DNA of 64,000 bases, from contig NZ_BONQ01000035.1 in the NCBI RefSeq assembly GCF_016862795.1, forward strand, positions 1 through 64,000. Reading direction: 5' to 3'. The first letter of the stretch is position 1, and the number at the start of each line of letters is the position of its first letter. The position numbers and the translations under genes are program-made. The notes beneath the pieces are model-generated. The model saw nothing but the letters and a program-made list of their open reading frames with translations. It was not told the origin of the DNA and searched no databases. This DNA comes from Dactylosporangium siamense (GTDB taxonomy: Bacteria > Actinomycetota > Actinomycetes > Mycobacteriales > Micromonosporaceae). Below are positions 2,383 to 19,968 of this stretch, one piece after another.

Positions 2383-3237
2383 TCAGGCCGGCGATGCTCC
2401 GGTGAGGTGTTCGAGCTGGATGATCGCGTCACCGTCGTGGAGGTGGGCGACGCGGCCGGTCGGCGTGTACCCGGCGGCGGCGTAGAGCCGCTGGGCACGG
2501 CTGTTGGACTGCCGGGTCCACAACGTCGTGCGGGTCCAGCCGAGGGCGTTGACCGCTCGGAGGAGTTGCTGGCCGTAGCCGTTCGACCAGTAGGAGGGAT
2601 GCACGAACACCATCGACACGTGCCCGTAGCCAGGAACCGGTTCGCCGGTGCCGTCGTCGGCGCGGCCTGGCTCGACCAGTGCCATGCCGACCACCACCTC
2701 AGGTCCGACAACCTCGTCCCCGAAGCCGTCCGACGCCGCGGCAAGGTCAGCGGGGGCAAGGTCAGCGGGGGCAAGGCTGGCGGAGGCAAGGGCATCGGAG
2801 CCAACAACGGCGGGAGCAACGGCATCGGAGGCGACGGCATCCGGGGCAACAACGGCGGAGGCAACGGCGGCCGGGCGAACCATGGCGGCCGGCACGCCAG
2901 CGGACACACCCGCAGCGGCGGACACGCCAGCGGACGCACCCGCCGCAGCATCCGCAGCGGCGGACGCACCAGAAGCGGTAGACGCACCCGCGGCGGCAGA
3001 CGCACCGGAAGCGGTGGACGCACCCGTGGCGGGGGTCAGCGTGGCGGGAGACGGGGTGGCCCGGGGCAGGGTGGCTACCAGGACGGTTGCGTCGGGGGCG
3101 GTGAGCTTCTCGCGGACGCGGGTCAGTCGGGACGCAGTCGGGGGCAGGCCGCGGGCGGCGTTCGCCGCGTGCCAGACCTCCACGGCGGCGGGCAGGTCGC
3201 CGGGCAGCGCGGCGCGCACATCGCTCATCGTCACCAT
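2383..3237 (-). CDS. GNAT-family acetyltransferase with long Ala-rich insert
   Basis: Acyl-CoA-dependent N-acetyltransferase of the GNAT fold, substrate unknown. The C-terminal half has the acetyl-CoA binding segment (VSMVFVHPSYWSNGYGQQLL) and the closing strand region (NSRAQRLYAAAGYTPTG); the N-terminal beta1-alpha2 part is residues 1-57. Between them about 110 residues are almost only Ala, Ser, Gly, Val and Pro in repeating GAS/ASGASA and AVAS/DAVA blocks, far more than the family needs (284 residues against about 150-170). ATG 3237 overlaps the stop of the glycosidase by seven bases, implying coupled translation; ATG 3228 is an alternative. Confidence 0.75.
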   Translation of the reverse strand: MVTMSDVRAALPGDLPAAVEVWHAANAARGLPPTASRLTRVREKLTAPDATVLVATLPRATPSPATLTPATGASTASGASAAAGASTASGASAAADAAAGASAGVSAAAGVSAGVPAAMVRPAAVASAVVAPDAVASDAVAPAVVGSDALASASLAPADLAPADLAAASDGFGDEVVGPEVVVGMALVEPGRADDGTGEPVPGYGHVSMVFVHPSYWSNGYGQQLLRAVNALGWTRTTLWTRQSNSRAQRLYAAAGYTPTGRVAHLHDGDAIIQLEHLTGASPA

Positions 3238-4427
3238 TGAAGCACCTGGCGGGTCACCGGGGTCACTTGCTGGCAGAGGGCGGGGCGGGGCCAGGTGACG
3301 TCGCGCAGTTCGTCGGCGTACGTGCGCCAGTAGTGGCCGCTGCCGTCGTAGTCGAAGTAGGCGTGCGACTCGTAGGCGACGCGGTGCAGCGGATCCCGGA
3401 TCCAGGCTCGCGGGTGCATGAGGCCCCAGGACGGCGGGCCCATCGGGATGTAGCCGCTGACGAGCAGGGCACGGCGGTCGCCGGTGGCGCGGATCGCGTC
3501 GACGGACTGCTGGGCGGCGCGTTCCCAGAGCAGGGCGCCGGCCCGGCCGTCGGCGGCGAGGCGGGTCGGCTCGTTGAGCAGGCCGAGGCCGATGACGGAG
3601 GGGTTGTCGGCCTCGACGGCCATGCGGCGCCAGAAGTCGGCCAGTGCGGTGGTGGGGAGGCCGGGGCCGCCGAGGCGCAGCAGGGTCTGCTGGTGGGGGC
3701 CGCCGCCGAGGGCGAAGTCGCCGTACCCGTGCAGGTCCAGCACGACCAGGAGACCGGCGTCGCGGGCGTGGTCGAGGGCGGCGCGGACCCGGGCGACCTC
3801 GGTGGCGGAGAGGGGGCCGAAGGGGGTCGGCTGGAGGCGTTCCCAGTTGACCGCGAGGCGGACCAGCCGGACGCCGCGGCCGGCGAGGAACTCGTAGCTC
3901 TGCGGGGTCTCGTACGTGTAGTCGTGGCCGTACCGGCCGGGGTTGGCGCTGCCGAAGCCGCCGTTCACCTCGGAGGTGGCGAAGGAGCCGGCGGCCAGGT
4001 TGACGCCGCGGAGGTAGCCGGCGGCGGTGCCGTGGCGTTCGACGACGCGCGCCTGCGGGCCGGGGACGTCGACGTCCATGCCGTGTGCGACGGGGCGGTA
4101 GACGGCCATCGGGTAGTTGGCCGGCCAGGTGCCGGCCGCCCAGGCCGTGACGGGCAGGCCGATCGCGTCGGCGGCCGAATACCAGGCCTCGGCGACCCCG
4201 GTCCACTGCTGCGCGTCGCGGTCGGCGGGCCAGCCGATCTCGCCGATGAAACCGGTCGCGTCGTTGCGGCGCAGCCACGCCGAGAAGTTGGCCAGGCCGG
4301 CGACGGCCCTGGCCTGGACCAGGTCCGTCGTGCACACCGTCTGTTCGGGACGAGGCCAGGTCACTGGTACGAGCAGCGCCGTCACGAGCAACAGCACCAT
4401 CGCCAGCGCCGGAGCTTTGCGCACCAC
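3231..4427 (-). CDS. Exported GH5-like glycoside hydrolase, circularly permuted
   Basis: Retaining beta-glycanase-like (cellulase-type, GH5) TIM-barrel of 398 residues behind a hydrophobic N-terminal export signal or anchor (residues about 8-20). Unusually, the segment that normally ends a GH5 domain comes first: WLRRND, the nucleophile motif GEIGWP (E63) and VTAWAAGTWPANYP. Only then comes the normal beginning of the domain (GVNLAAG, residue 141), the WERLQP and LDLHGYGD strands, the acid/base motif NEP (E286) and the YESHAYFDYDGSG strand at the end. The peptide VTWPRP occurs at both termini (residues 22-27 and 377-382). Start GTG 4427 (or 4424) was chosen for the signal sequence. Substrate is not predictable. 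Confidence 0.8.
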   Translation of the reverse strand: MVRKAPALAMVLLLVTALLVPVTWPRPEQTVCTTDLVQARAVAGLANFSAWLRRNDATGFIGEIGWPADRDAQQWTGVAEAWYSAADAIGLPVTAWAAGTWPANYPMAVYRPVAHGMDVDVPGPQARVVERHGTAAGYLRGVNLAAGSFATSEVNGGFGSANPGRYGHDYTYETPQSYEFLAGRGVRLVRLAVNWERLQPTPFGPLSATEVARVRAALDHARDAGLLVVLDLHGYGDFALGGGPHQQTLLRLGGPGLPTTALADFWRRMAVEADNPSVIGLGLLNEPTRLAADGRAGALLWERAAQQSVDAIRATGDRRALLVSGYIPMGPPSWGLMHPRAWIRDPLHRVAYESHAYFDYDGSGHYWRTYADELRDVTWPRPALCQQVTPVTRQVLQW

Positions 4428-5414: not shown

Positions 5415-6194
5415 TCAACGAACACGCAAGGTCACATGGCTGCCGGCGGAGACGCCGAGCAGCGCGGCGGCGCTGCCGCCGTTGACGGCGACGGCGAGGT
5501 AGCCCGCGGAGTCGGTGAACACCACCAGGCCGCCGGGCGCGGCGTCGCCGAACGTGCCACCGGCCACCGCCGGCCGGCCGTCGACGGTCACGTCGGACCA
5601 CGCCACTCCAACAGCGACGGGAGCGGCGGAGGCCGCGACCGCGAGCTGCACATTGCCGAACCGGTCGACGGTGAGCACCTCTGCCGTGAAACCGTCCGGG
5701 AGGGTAAGCAGGAGCGGCGGCGGTAGTCGTACCAAATCCGCGGTCGCACTTCCAAGGGACGCCGGATCAGCGCCTTCGGCGAGGCGGGCGGCCGCCGGGG
5801 CGAAGATGTCGCGGCCGTGGAACGTGCGTGACGCGTCGGGGGCGGACCTGAGGTGCACGGCGCGGCGGATCCCGCCGAGGGCCTCCGCCGCGGGGATCAG
5901 CAGGCCGTTGTCGGGGCCGACGAGGAAGCCGCCGTCGGCCGCCTCGATCGCGATCGGCCGGCGCGCGGTGCCGACGCCCGGGTCGACGACGGCGAGGTGC
6001 ACGCCGCGCGGCAGCGACGGGACGGTCTGCGCGAGCACGTGCGCGCCACGGGTGACGTCGCCCGGCGGCACGAGGTGCGTCACGTCGATCACGCGCGCGT
6101 CGGGGGCCAGGCGGGCGATCACGCCGTGGCAGGCGGCGACGAACCCGTCCTCGAGCCCGTAGTCGGTGATGAAGGAGATCCAGCTGCGGCCCAT
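5415..6194 (-). CDS. SAM hydroxide adenosyltransferase (DUF62, chlorinase/fluorinase superfamily)
   Basis: Family members of the chlorinase/fluorinase fold without halogenating activity hydrolyse S-adenosylmethionine to adenosine and methionine. Visible motifs are FITDYG at the N-terminus, VVDPGVGT, VGPDNGLL, TFHGRDIFAP and DRFGNVQL; this set, with HGRD, is typical of the hydrolase branch rather than true halogenases. 259 residues is normal length. Its ATG lies only 18 bases from the ATG of the divergent LLM oxidoreductase, leaving room for leaderless transcription only. Confidence 0.85.
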   Translation of the reverse strand: MGRSWISFITDYGLEDGFVAACHGVIARLAPDARVIDVTHLVPPGDVTRGAHVLAQTVPSLPRGVHLAVVDPGVGTARRPIAIEAADGGFLVGPDNGLLIPAAEALGGIRRAVHLRSAPDASRTFHGRDIFAPAAARLAEGADPASLGSATADLVRLPPPLLLTLPDGFTAEVLTVDRFGNVQLAVAASAAPVAVGVAWSDVTVDGRPAVAGGTFGDAAPGGLVVFTDSAGYLAVAVNGGSAAALLGVSAGSHVTLRVR

Positions 6195-6199
6195 CAGGA

Positions 6200-6205
6200 T
6201 AGTGT
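6200..6205 (+). promoter_or_regulatory. -10 box TAGTGT, leaderless start of LLM oxidoreductase gene
   Basis: TAGTGT ends seven bases before ATG 6213 and no Shine-Dalgarno sequence fits in the 18-base divergent gap, so transcription probably starts at the A of the start codon. Confidence 0.5.
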
Positions 6206-6212
6206 CGGCTGC

Positions 6213-7148
6213 ATGCGGCTAGCAGTGTTCATCGAGCCCCAGCTCGGCGCCACGTACGAGGAGCAGCTCGCCTTCGCGCAACGGGCCGAGCGGCTCGGCT
6301 TCGAGGGGTTCTTCCGCTCGGACCACTACCTGGCGACGCGCGGCGGAGCGCCCGGGCCGACCGACTCGTGGGTGACGCTCGGCGCGCTCGCCCGCGAGAC
6401 CTCCACGATCCGGCTCGGCACGCTCGTGTCGTCGGCGACGTTCCGCTACCCGGGGCCGCTGGCCGTCGCGGTCGCGCAGGTCGACGCGATGAGTGGCGGC
6501 CGGGTGGAGCTGGGGCTGGGCACCGGCTGGTTCGAGCGGGAGCACGCGGCGTACGGGATCCCGTTCCCGCCCGTCGGCGAGCGGTTCGACCGGCTCGAGG
6601 AGCAGCTGGAGATCCTGACCGGGCTGTGGTCGACGCCGGAGGGTGACACGTTCAGCTTCGAGGGCCGCCACTACGACCTGGTCGACTCGCCCGCCCTGCC
6701 GAAGCCGGTGCAGCGGCCCGGGCCGCCGATCATCATCGGCGGCAAGGGGCTCAAGCGGACACCCCGGCTGGCGGCGCGGTTCGCCGACGAGTTCAACGTG
6801 CCGTTCTCCTCGCTCGCCGAGACCACCACGTCCTACGACCGGGTCGTCGCCGCGATCGAGGCCGAGGGGCGCGACGGGCGGGCGCCGATCGTGTTCTCGT
6901 TCGCGCAGACGATCGTGTGCGGCGCGACCGACGCCGAGGTCCGCCGCCGGGCCGAGTCGGCCGGGCTCGACCCGAACGGGCCATCGGCCTCCGGCGGGCA
7001 GCTGTACGGCACGCCGGCCCGCGTGGCGGAACAACTCGCCGACTTCGTGAAGGCCGGCGCATCGAGGGCGTTCCTTCAGATCCTCGACCTCCGGGACCTG
7101 GAGCAGCTGGATCTGATCGCGGCGGAGGTAGCGCCACTGCTGCCGTGA
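6213..7148 (+). CDS. LLM-class, probably F420-dependent oxidoreductase
   Basis: Luciferase-like monooxygenase fold of 311 residues; actinobacterial members with this profile use coenzyme F420 for hydride transfer, substrate unknown. Motifs seen: FFRSDHYLA near the N-terminus, TSTIRLGTLVSSATFRYPG, QVDAMSGGRVELGLGTGW, and PGPPIIIGG. The ATG start coincides with a leaderless promoter. It is read away from the SAM hydrolase gene and towards nei, which starts 18 bases after its stop, so the two may be co-transcribed. Confidence 0.85.
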   Translation: MRLAVFIEPQLGATYEEQLAFAQRAERLGFEGFFRSDHYLATRGGAPGPTDSWVTLGALARETSTIRLGTLVSSATFRYPGPLAVAVAQVDAMSGGRVELGLGTGWFEREHAAYGIPFPPVGERFDRLEEQLEILTGLWSTPEGDTFSFEGRHYDLVDSPALPKPVQRPGPPIIIGGKGLKRTPRLAARFADEFNVPFSSLAETTTSYDRVVAAIEAEGRDGRAPIVFSFAQTIVCGATDAEVRRRAESAGLDPNGPSASGGQLYGTPARVAEQLADFVKAGASRAFLQILDLRDLEQLDLIAAEVAPLLP

Positions 7149-17298: not shown

Positions 17299-19968
17299 TC
17301 AGTCGTCGTCTTCGGTGGCTCTCAGGGCGCCGAGCACCTCGGGCAGCTCGTCCGGCTTGATCAGCACGTCGCGGGCCTTGGAGCCCTCGGACGGGCCGAC
17401 GATCCCGCGGGTCTCCATGAGGTCCATCAGCCGGCCGGCCTTGGCGAACCCGACCCGCAGCTTGCGCTGCAGCATGCTGGTCGAGCCGAACTGGCTGGTG
17501 ACGACCAGCTCGATCGCCTGCAGCAGCAGCTCGAGGTCGTCGCCGATCTCCTCGTCGACCTTCTTCTTGACGTCTTCGGGCTTGGTGGTGACGCCGTCGC
17601 GGAACTCCGGCTCGCGCTGGTCCTTGCAGAACTTGACGATGTCGCTGATCTCGGTCTCGCTGACCCAGGCGCCCTGGATGCGGATCGGCTTCGACGCGCC
17701 CATGGGCAGGAACAGCGCGTCGCCGCGGCCGATCAGCTTCTCCGCGCCCGGCTGGTCGAGGATGACCCGCGAGTCGGCGAGGCTGGACGTGGCGAAGGCC
17801 AGCCGCGACGGCACGTTGGCCTTGATCAGACCGGTGACCACGTCGACCGACGGGCGCTGGGTGGCCAGCACCAGGTGGATGCCGGCGGCGCGGGCGAGCT
17901 GCGTGATGCGCACCACCGAGTCCTCGACGTCGCGCGGGGCGACCATCATCAGGTCGGCCAGCTCGTCGACGACGACCAGCAGATACGGGTAGGGCCGGAT
18001 GACCCGCTCGCTGCCCGGCGGCGCGGTGATCTGCCCGGCGCGGACCTTGCGGTTGTAGTCGTCGATGTGCCGGACGCCGGCGGCGGCCAGGTCGTCGTAG
18101 CGCATGTCCATCTCGCGCACGACCCAGTCGAGGGCGTCGGCGGCCTTCTTCGGGTTGGTGACGATCGGCGTGACCAGGTGCGGGATGCCCTCATAGCTGG
18201 TCAGCTCGACCCGCTTCGGGTCGACCAGCAGCAGCCGGACCTCGTCGGGCGTGGCCCGGGTCAGCAGCGACACGAGCAGCGTGTTGAGGCAGCTCGACTT
18301 GCCCGCGCCGGTCGCGCCGGCGATCAGGATGTGCGGCATCTTCGCCAGGTTGGCCACCACGTAGCCACCCTCGATGTCCTTGCCGAGCGCCACGATGAGC
18401 GGGTGGTGGTCGGCGGTCGCGACCCGCGAGCGCAGGACGTCGCCGAGCGCGACGTTCTCCCGGTCGGGGTTGGGGATCTCGACGCCGACCGCGCTCTTGC
18501 CGGGGATCGGGCTCTGGATCCGCACGTCGGGTGACTTCACCGCATAGGCGATGTTGCGCGACAGCGCCGTGATCCGTTCGACCTTGACGCCGTGGCCGAC
18601 CTCGACCTCATAGCGGGTCACGGTCGGACCGCGGGTGAAGCCGGTGACGAGCGCGTCGACGCCGAACTGCTCGAACACGCCCTGCAGCGCGGCGGTCACC
18701 TCGTCGTTGGCGCGGGTGCGTCCGCGCGGCGCGTCGCCGGTGCCGAGCAGGTCGGGCGGCGGCAGCTTGTAGTCGGCGTCGGTGAGCGCCAGCTGCTCCG
18801 CGCGGGTCGGCAGCGGCGAGTGCTCCGGTGGGTCCTTCTCCCGCTCCTTCGCCTTCTTCCGCGACCCGGCGGCGGGCGGGCGCGGCAGCACGACCGTGTC
18901 GTGGACGATCAGGTCGTCGTCGAGACCGGCGCCGAGGTCCGGTGCCGAGGCGTCATACCCGTCGAGCGGCCCTTCCGGGTCGTCGAGCGGGTGGGGCAGC
19001 GCGGTCGCCTGCCGGCGGCGGGCCGGGGTCCGCCGGGCCGGGCGCGGCTCCGGCTCGTCATAGAGCTCCTCGAACTCCTCGTCGACGTCGAGGGTCGGGT
19101 CCTCGACCCGGCCGAGGGCCAGGTCACGCAGCTGCCGCCAGCGGTGCGGGATGCGGCTGATCGGGGTGGCGGTGACGACGAGCAGGCCGAAACCGCCGAG
19201 CAGGAGCAGCAGCGGCACCGCGACCCAGGCGGTGACGGCCTTCTCCAGCAGGCCGCCCGCGGCCCGGCCGAGCAGGCCGCCGGCCTTGTCCATGAGGTCG
19301 GGCTTGTCGGGGCTGCCGGCCGCCAGGTGCATGAGGCCGGTGCCGCCGAGGAACAGCGCGGTCCAGCCGACGAGCCCGCGGCCCCGGTGGTCCTCCTCGG
19401 GGTCGGAGCGCATGATGCGGATGCCGCCGACGAGCAGCAGCACCGGCAGCACCGAGGCGGCGCCACCGATGAACGTGTGGCAGATCCCGGCGACCCAGTG
19501 CCCGACCGGCCCGGCGGACTGGAACCACACCGCGGCGGTGACCAGCACGGCGAGGCCGATGAGGCCCAGGCCGGCGCCGTCGCGGCGGTGTGCGGGGTCC
19601 AGGTCGCGGGCGCTGGCCGCCTGGCGGCCCACGGCCCGGGCGGCCCAGCCGACGCCGTGCGCCACGCCCATCCAGAGCGCGATCATGCCCCGGCCGAGCA
19701 GCCCCAGCGGCGTGGCGACCGCCGCGCCACCACGCCGACGCCGCGCCACCGCGGTGCGGCGGACCGGCGCCGCGCGCTTGGCGGCAGCGGAACGCGAAGC
19801 AGCGGTGGAACGCGTTGCGGAAGCGGCGCGCTTGGCAGGAACGGCGCGCTCAACGGGCGCGGCGCGCTTGGCGGGAACAGCACGCTTGGACGGCGTGCTC
19901 GAACCGCCGCGGGAGCCGGACGCGCCGGAGCCGCGGCCGGCCTGAGAGGTGCGGCCCGCCATGGTCAC
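17299..19968 (-). CDS. ftsK: DNA translocase FtsK
   Basis: Septum-anchored ATP-driven DNA pump for chromosome segregation at division; 889 residues. The N-terminus is a basic Ala/Lys/Arg-rich tract with PAKRA repeats, followed by four hydrophobic helices (about residues 130-290), an acidic linker, then the motor with Walker A GATGAGKSS (about residue 550), Walker B LLVVVDELADLMM, and a C-terminal gamma winged helix (SMLQRKLRVGFAKAGRLMD). GTG 19968 overlaps the DUF2784 stop as GTGA. Alternatively ATG 19962 is the start, because TACGGT (19969-19974) ends six bases before it. Confidence 0.95.
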   Translation of the reverse strand: MTMAGRTSQAGRGSGASGSRGGSSTPSKRAVPAKRAAPVERAVPAKRAASATRSTAASRSAAAKRAAPVRRTAVARRRRGGAAVATPLGLLGRGMIALWMGVAHGVGWAARAVGRQAASARDLDPAHRRDGAGLGLIGLAVLVTAAVWFQSAGPVGHWVAGICHTFIGGAASVLPVLLLVGGIRIMRSDPEEDHRGRGLVGWTALFLGGTGLMHLAAGSPDKPDLMDKAGGLLGRAAGGLLEKAVTAWVAVPLLLLLGGFGLLVVTATPISRIPHRWRQLRDLALGRVEDPTLDVDEEFEELYDEPEPRPARRTPARRRQATALPHPLDDPEGPLDGYDASAPDLGAGLDDDLIVHDTVVLPRPPAAGSRKKAKEREKDPPEHSPLPTRAEQLALTDADYKLPPPDLLGTGDAPRGRTRANDEVTAALQGVFEQFGVDALVTGFTRGPTVTRYEVEVGHGVKVERITALSRNIAYAVKSPDVRIQSPIPGKSAVGVEIPNPDRENVALGDVLRSRVATADHHPLIVALGKDIEGGYVVANLAKMPHILIAGATGAGKSSCLNTLLVSLLTRATPDEVRLLLVDPKRVELTSYEGIPHLVTPIVTNPKKAADALDWVVREMDMRYDDLAAAGVRHIDDYNRKVRAGQITAPPGSERVIRPYPYLLVVVDELADLMMVAPRDVEDSVVRITQLARAAGIHLVLATQRPSVDVVTGLIKANVPSRLAFATSSLADSRVILDQPGAEKLIGRGDALFLPMGASKPIRIQGAWVSETEISDIVKFCKDQREPEFRDGVTTKPEDVKKKVDEEIGDDLELLLQAIELVVTSQFGSTSMLQRKLRVGFAKAGRLMDLMETRGIVGPSEGSKARDVLIKPDELPEVLGALRATEDDD

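Follow-up and report, generated by a model that had tools for sequence, protein, structure and literature searches.

A glycoside hydrolase family 5 protein of Dactylosporangium siamense that is very probably a natural circular permutant

Can a working glycosidase barrel be encoded with its closing part ahead of its opening part? This question is raised by a gene in the first 64,000 nt of contig NZ_BONQ01000035.1 of Dactylosporangium siamense, the whole stretch of DNA that we analysed (hereafter the window). An open reading frame (ORF) at 3231–4427 on the minus strand, like all features of the window described below, runs without internal stop from a GTG start to a TGA stop at 3231–3233 and encodes a 398-aa protein of glycoside hydrolase family 5 (GH5), among the largest and best-studied glycosidase families. 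As a rule, the acid/base glutamate of GH5 proteins (strand β4) precedes the nucleophile (β7). Here the order is the opposite: the putative nucleophile Glu63 (GEIGWP, end of β7; 4239–4241) lies ahead of the putative acid/base Glu286 (LLNEP, end of β4; 3570–3572), both assigned by homology. An earlier, sequence-only reading had placed these motifs correctly, along with G141 of GVNLAAG and YESHAYFDYDGSG near the C-terminal end, and had proposed a circular permutation that arose by tandem duplication and left a short repeat as its scar. We find that this is very probably a GH5 domain circularly permuted in nature, and that the permuted form has been conserved together with its active-site residues. 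Exchanged blocks in structure-database matches, a Pfam match restored on rotation, the order of elements in a structure model and the junctions seen in normal-order relatives all speak for the permutation, while the duplication scar did not hold up.

Comparison with solved GH5 cellulases confirmed both that the ORF is real and that its order is swapped. Using phmmer against PDB sequences, the best match was 5hnn (XacCel5A; whole-sequence E = 7.1e-35), which was matched in two exchanged blocks: query residues 160–364 aligned with chain positions 37–233 (independent E-value 1.7e-29) and residues 30–133 with positions 236–332 (0.0012). Judged by these alignments, the swapped order goes far beyond chance, and both halves are homologous to one parent, exchanged, with no middle part lost. 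Block A, comprising β1 to β6 (residues 139–369; 3321–4013), would normally open a GH5 domain and here follows block B, α6-β7-α7-β8-α8 (residues 35–133; 4029–4325), which would normally close it. In line with this, the protein matched the Pfam Cellulase profile PF00150 with 86.9 bits (gathering cut-off 23.5) over a best stretch of profile positions 17–204, and its N-terminal part scanned alone matched positions 216–269 of 272 (E = 0.04). Among the 17 Cellulase matches in the window's genome, the GH5 permutant alone ended at profile position 205; the other 16 reached 252–272. When the mature protein was rotated in silico at the proposed joint and scanned again, it gave a single continuous Cellulase stretch (17–269 of 272, 90.2 bits), compared with 17–204 and 87.2 bits for the native order in the same comparison and 76.2 and 83.0 bits for the two control rotations that were scanned. 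Plasmid records served as a native-order control: the window protein covered at least 80% of itself in one place in none of seven (best 65%), and a normal-order relative from Modestobacter (L011) reached 80% of itself in two of eight and 79–80% in five more. NCBIfam yielded weak endoglycoceramidase matches only, the normal-order L011 included (E = 0.0002 to 0.005).

The cut and the join could be read from seven normal-order relatives, all from one family, f16, which we infer to be Geodermatophilaceae. Most of these proteins share GFIGE(I/M)GWP with the permuted ones, and the set (L011/L052, L012/L061, L062–L064 and L053) has the same SY..TE.DAV.RGW-type loop, but the chain starts at β1, ends past α8 and runs continuously from β6 into α6. 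In L061, for example, the loop after β6 reads SYADTEADAVERGW-PDLSSRIEEELENFTGWL. The simplest permuted proteins, such as L067, end with SYAEEVADAQNRGY followed by the stop codon and start, past the leader, with DALHSRVRAELGRFTGWL, so that the break falls between GY/W and the start of α6. Conversely, the C-terminus of L011, VIESHPSQLLAD, and its N-terminus, DYRYLRGVN, together match the linkers of permuted proteins, for example VLERHPSTGRYLRGV in L008, and the two L052 proteins end in VIE.HPS, as found in permuted linkers. In the window protein, the two old termini meet at residues 134–138 (4014–4028), directly ahead of LRGVN. The normal-order alignment thus shows the old termini joined and the new ones in a loop of the parent, presumably on its surface. 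Past the new break point, alignment and model place a C-terminal helix and tail (residues 370–398; 3234–3320).

An AlphaFold2 model of the window protein, built with 11 permuted sequences (predicted template modelling score (pTM) 0.82, mean predicted local distance difference test (pLDDT) 77.5), contained a helix at 36–54, strand 58–65, helix 72–89, strand 93–96, helix 124–131 and strand 138–144, as well as strand 350–357 and helix 370–377 near the C-terminus. In this prediction the order of elements is α6-β7-α7-β8-α8-β1...β6, with all eight barrel strands and helices present in permuted order. The modelled strands 58–65 and 93–96 with their flanking helices agree with the earlier placement of residues 46–110 at β7–β8. 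Going by the model, the barrel should close into an ordinary (β/α)8 fold. Foldseek searches of the PDB ranked XacCel5A, Xac0029 and Pseudomonas stutzeri Cel5A at the top, with TM-scores by query length of 0.41–0.46 over 193–252 columns in the first 30 rows and 0.35–0.46 over 193–297 columns in the best 50. Since Foldseek aligns sequentially and a permuted superposition lies outside its scoring, such low coverage and scores are expected if a third of the barrel stands out of order.

Several of these results weigh against a permutation. The Pfam gain from rotation was small (90.2 versus 87.2 bits) and the best phmmer score against the PDB was no higher after it (123.9 native, 123.0 rotated); both blocks were still found as separate stretches, now in chain order. 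The reason for this weak gain is that the second block is short and divergent. The model is of middling confidence, with pLDDT <50 at residues 1–5, 16–24, 98–106 and 146–172, and a model of the normal-order pair L011/L012 from a two-row alignment reached a mean pLDDT of only 44.1, which leaves the fold comparison without a control and barrel closure as a prediction.

The permuted order is not confined to the window. A first scan of genome contigs yielded 12 loci (L001–L012), ten of which (L001–L010) carry the permuted order: seven from Dactylosporangium and one each from Planosporangium, Peterkaempfera and a Microbacteriaceae isolate. The remaining two, from Modestobacter (L011) and from a record labelled 'Bacillus sp. 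AZ43' UNVERIFIED (L012), are in normal order. L012 is a duplicate of L061, whose genome (G761) was placed in family f16 of the window's order, suggesting that the 'Bacillus sp. AZ43' label is wrong. We then searched whole genomes with a junction-spanning alignment (A2; E ≤ 1e-12). All seven genomes of the genus carry the permuted order. In the class sample, 2 of 394 genomes matched, the window's own and one with two copies, and in the order sample 9 of 397, six across the junction (the window's own included) and three in one half only. Family f16 gave matches in 8 of 112 genomes (three across the junction, five in one half only), and the families of four other finds in 1/3, 1/1, 1/24 and 1/24. 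In the phylum sample, where finds counted as 'same phylum' lie outside the window's class, 10 of 396 genomes matched, nine across the junction and one as a fragment; apart from the window's own, eight of these genomes are permuted. The half-only matches turned out to be normal-order proteins.

Searching with an alignment of normal-order proteins (A4; E ≤ 1e-18) gave no whole-model match in the phylum sample, where 7 of 396 genomes matched in halves or fragments. Eight of 229 genomes in an order sample had matches. Only G048, with two genes, and G140 matched along the whole model; G191 has one distant normal-order protein. Taken together, the A2 and A4 results show close normal-order relatives in family f16 only. 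The two genes of G048 (Modestobacter sp. VKM Ac-2982, contig C8; L052:4279–5727 and 5924–7087) are normal-order GH5 genes in tandem on one strand, near a gene resembling UDP-glucose dehydrogenase. Another normal-order member of this subgroup, encoded by a 1035-aa minus-strand ORF in L063, combines a long N-terminal region with a C-terminal one that by eye resembles an SGNH hydrolase plus another domain. We examined 30 permuted proteins in full, some of them from outside the window's class, after excluding the truncated L073/L081 (G1137) and L082 (G957) and setting aside L043–L048 from the genus search; L011 and L012 were left out as duplicates of L052 and L061, respectively. The permuted form is a widely inherited branch and not an accident of a single genome.

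For phylogenetic analysis, permuted sequences were rotated and aligned with normal-order ones in trees of 41 and 47 rows; L094, a distant normal-order protein on a very long branch, was included in the former and left out of the latter. In the 47-row tree, six normal-order f16 proteins formed one group (100/100) beside the permuted proteins, with a split support of 72/90, and ten GH5_5-type outgroup rows formed one clade (100/99). Normal-order L053 (G140 contig C1; a minus-strand ORF of 782 aa with GEP replacing NEP) was placed among the permuted rows with low support in the free trees. Because of this, the permuted rows do not form one clade there and two changes are needed; indeed, the share of 200 bootstrap trees in which the 30 permuted rows were monophyletic was 0% with 41 rows and 2% with 47, a point against a single origin of the permutation.

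The permutation could thus have been repeated or reversed, with L053 permuted back from a permuted ancestor. Besides its placement, L053 shares the stretches GVRRAIGS and FSN..PG with some permuted proteins (the window's is not among them) and reads GY..DAL at the break, a site at which the remaining six normal-order proteins carry GW or different residues. A grouping of L053 with the three permuted f16 proteins was not rejected in the 47-row tree (approximately unbiased (AU) test, p = 0.367), and holding the eight normal-order locus rows together came near rejection in the 41-row tree (p = 0.0543). Against this, a clade of the 30 permuted rows was not rejected in the 41-row tree (p = 0.15) and, with more outgroups in the 47-row tree, was 2.58 log units likelier (p = 0.602); in that tree a clade of the seven normal-order f16 rows was not rejected either (p = 0.323). 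Moreover, L053 sits on a long branch (1.55) and has altered active-site motifs. A repeated or reversed permutation is unlikely but not negligible, and a single origin with L053 outside the permuted clade is the simplest reading. An old lineage of Actinomycetota probably acquired the permutation, in one or very few events, and the parent would have been a normal-order protein like those that survive in Geodermatophilaceae. The resulting chain starts at helix α6 and ends just past strand β6, with a few residues joining the old termini.

How the permutation came about is a separate question. Of the two usual models of circular permutation, one is a duplication after which the outer halves are lost (PMC3320104), and the sequence-only reading had favoured it on account of a repeat. 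The motif VTWPRP does occur at residues 22–27 and 377–382, encoded by 18-nt stretches (4347–4364 and 3282–3299) that are identical at 15 of 18 positions. Such a repeat is unusual: when the ends were shuffled 20,000 times, a 6-mer common to both arose in a fraction of 0.0009, and when the whole protein was shuffled 5,000 times, an exact 6-mer repeat of any kind arose in 0.012. However, VTWPRP is present at both ends of only two of the 30 permuted proteins, those of the window and of D. aurantiacum (L001). In L002–L006, VTWP.P is kept at the C-terminus and the N-terminus reads VPLQLPRP or VPLQPxxx, while L007–L010 and the remaining permuted proteins have neither copy. We therefore rejected the repeat as an ancestral scar of a tandem duplication and regard it as a recent or chance likeness.

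With the scar gone, some ground is gained by an alternative to the duplication-and-fusion route, namely fission of the gene followed by fusion of the two half-genes. A fused tandem intermediate (A-B-A-B or B-A-B) was not seen by eye among the proteins examined, with no dedicated search made, but neither were half-genes noticed, though no search was aimed at them. Tandem pairs of normal-order genes, such as that of L052, do exist and make a duplication origin plausible. Given these and the standing of duplication among the usual models, we consider fission and fusion improbable, a little more so than a reversal in L053.

Far less probable is a reading in which residues 30–135 form an unrelated accessory domain and the remainder is a GH5 domain cut after β6, lacking the nucleophile strand and either dead or binding-only. 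The N-terminal half alone does match Pfam Cellulase at no better than E = 0.04, but what it aligns with is exactly the missing part of the profile (216–269 of 272) and positions 236–332 of XacCel5A. GFIGE.GW and WAAG are common to the normal-order relatives, where they follow β6, both catalytic glutamates are invariant in 11 proteins, and the AlphaFold2 model likewise disfavours such a domain. We rejected this reading. Finally, an assembly artefact, such as a tandem GH5 pair of the Modestobacter kind (L052, two genes on the same strand) collapsed by the assembler, is in effect refuted and has next to no probability, as 30 proteins from many separate assemblies read through the same junction in one frame and L002, L003 and L004 are from records titled complete genomes.

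The eight conserved active-site residues of GH5 are Arg, His, Asn, Glu, His, Tyr, Glu and Trp. Eleven permuted proteins have the corresponding R190, H233, N285, E286, H355, Y357, E63 and W96 without exception; a few of the 30 deviate, among them L054 and L070, in which Gln replaces His, and L074, in which NEP has become REP. A closed barrel would unite Glu286 on β4 with Glu63 on β7, and the chemistry would therefore be expected to be the normal double-displacement hydrolysis of β-glucan. By its nearest solved structures, the protein is probably a GH5-type retaining glycosidase closest to the subfamily 5 cellulases. Glucanase activity is likely. XacCel5A (4w7u/5hnn), P. stutzeri Cel5A (4lx4), RBcel1 (4ee9) and Thermoascus aurantiacus EGI (1h1n), which we take to be GH5 subfamily 5-type, are among the top sequence and Foldseek matches and have the motifs, the catalytic Glu pair and the barrel elements in common with the window protein, which differs in the rotated order of those elements. 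A hydrophobic N-terminal segment (residues 1–27, with a model helix at 7–18; 4347–4427) is a putative signal or anchor, so the protein is probably secreted or membrane-anchored.

To our knowledge, no natural circular permutant of GH5 has been described, and we found none in the literature on permuted glycoside hydrolases, as covered by titles and abstract openings, with subscription journals thinly represented. Two precedents are of other kinds: GH70 and GH13 belong to another enzyme clan than GH5, and the permuted glucanase TOS1 is not known to be a GH5 barrel. GH70 glucansucrases are naturally permuted relative to GH13 within the catalytic (β/α)8 barrel (PMC11046441). They resemble the window protein in this respect, but their chain begins at α3 and their chemistry is that of α-glucans. 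TOS1 appears as a natural permuted glucanase in the title of a reference cited in PMC4176579. Passages of two further papers treat glutathione synthetase and cellulase folds (PMC2876114) and cite a reference on carbohydrate-binding modules (PMC4725902).

The new chain ends of the window protein each carry a cysteine, Cys32 adjoining the N-terminus (4332–4334) and Cys385 in the C-terminal tail (3273–3275). The mature protein has no other cysteine, and the two lie in short extra model strands at 29–32 and 385–388. Of the 30 permuted proteins, 15 had a Cys just ahead of the first helix together with one in the C-terminal tail and 15 had neither at these places; none had a single one. The 15 proteins with the pair have no other Cys in the mature protein; among the 15 without it, nine have no mature Cys at all and six have 2–4 elsewhere. 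Cys32 aligns with the Cys of VCTSD in XacCel5A, whose second Cys follows 37 residues on in the printed alignment. The same spacing is found in the fungal EGLII, for which PMC6479618 gives a native C221–C258 bond, and C221 presumably corresponds to the VCTSD site. In the window's group, the second, α7 Cys of XacCel5A is missing and the tail Cys is present in its place. From these alignments, a Cys32–Cys385 disulfide that clamps the new ends is a fairly probable feature of the window's sub-lineage; the ancestral GH5_5 bond would have changed partner and would now tie the new chain ends. The co-occurrence is less telling than its count suggests: with the two traits entered as one state list, being coincident in all 30 rows, the state changed only twice on the tree, so that the pair represents one or two independent events, not fifteen. 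That the barrel was rotated twice, in an ancestral actinobacterium and back again in L053 of Geodermatophilaceae, and that, separately, the disulfide kept one Cys and swapped its partner, is as a joint proposal unlikely. If the double rotation were true, circular permutation would be a change that a working enzyme can undergo and reverse in evolution.

What these enzymes act on may be hinted at by their neighbours. Genes were called by a simple script based on GC content at third codon positions (GC3), not a trained caller; in regions L009, L056 and L060 the script failed to call even the GH5 gene. Chosen neighbours were scanned against Pfam in 12 of 21 regions around permuted genes. Nine of the 12 (L009, L054, L056, L059, L060, L105, L107, L109 and L111) contained a glycosyltransferase, flippase or nucleotide-sugar gene, a proportion that is not a frequency, as the neighbours were picked for apparent relevance; the neighbours scanned in the window, L055 and L106 included none of these. 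Next to or close to the gene, L009 encodes a membrane protein of the PMT type (Pfam PMT_2), and L054, L055 and L056 encode one recognised by its similarity to that of L009. Glycosyltransferase family 2 (GT2) proteins with a QxxRW motif were noted by eye in L009 and L054, and the L105 and L109 GT2 proteins match Pfam Cellulose_synt, in one case with PilZ. Among known endoglucanases linked to cellulose synthases, BcsZ belongs to GH8 and CslZ of Streptomyces to GH6. Several permuted relatives adjoin a GT2 glycan synthase as these do, but they are of a different GH family and the window copy has no such neighbours.

Indeed, the neighbours scanned in the window, which do not favour a link to glycan synthesis, are not glycan genes. 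Upstream and co-directional lies an S-adenosyl methyltransferase gene (PF04672; 4472–5320), also found near the gene in five of the loci L001–L010 (L001, L002, L003, L005 and L006). Downstream, the start of a GNAT acetyltransferase gene (2383–3237) overlaps the end of the GH5 gene, and part of it was matched in two of these loci (L001 and L004). By eye, the GNAT gene carries an Ala/Ser/Val-rich low-complexity insert at 2700–3060, ahead of the acetyltransferase domain. We regard both genes as neighbours only. In other regions, a protein combining CBM96 and a metallophosphatase domain (Pfam) is encoded on the far side of the permuted GH5 gene in two families (L009:6625–8787 and L055:2637–5366), and G466 carries a pair of permuted GH5 genes, divergent from each other, at L054:3697–4947 and 17775–19103; they lie on opposite strands with ∼14 kb between them, and both have GT2 genes nearby. 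The enzyme, at least in the relatives, would trim β-glycan that a neighbouring synthase produces. Trimming or release of a self-made β-glycan by the family is for these relatives a tentative proposal, somewhat short of an even chance, and for the window copy it is less probable still.

Annotation that expects a collinear GH5 domain tends to call such proteins partial; here the native Pfam match stops at 204 of 272. Because the permuted branch is widespread and normal-order relatives are still living, direct tests of how a permuted TIM barrel originated become feasible. The two orders also allow folding, stability and activity to be compared, and one can ask whether the Cys pair at the termini makes up for the new ends.

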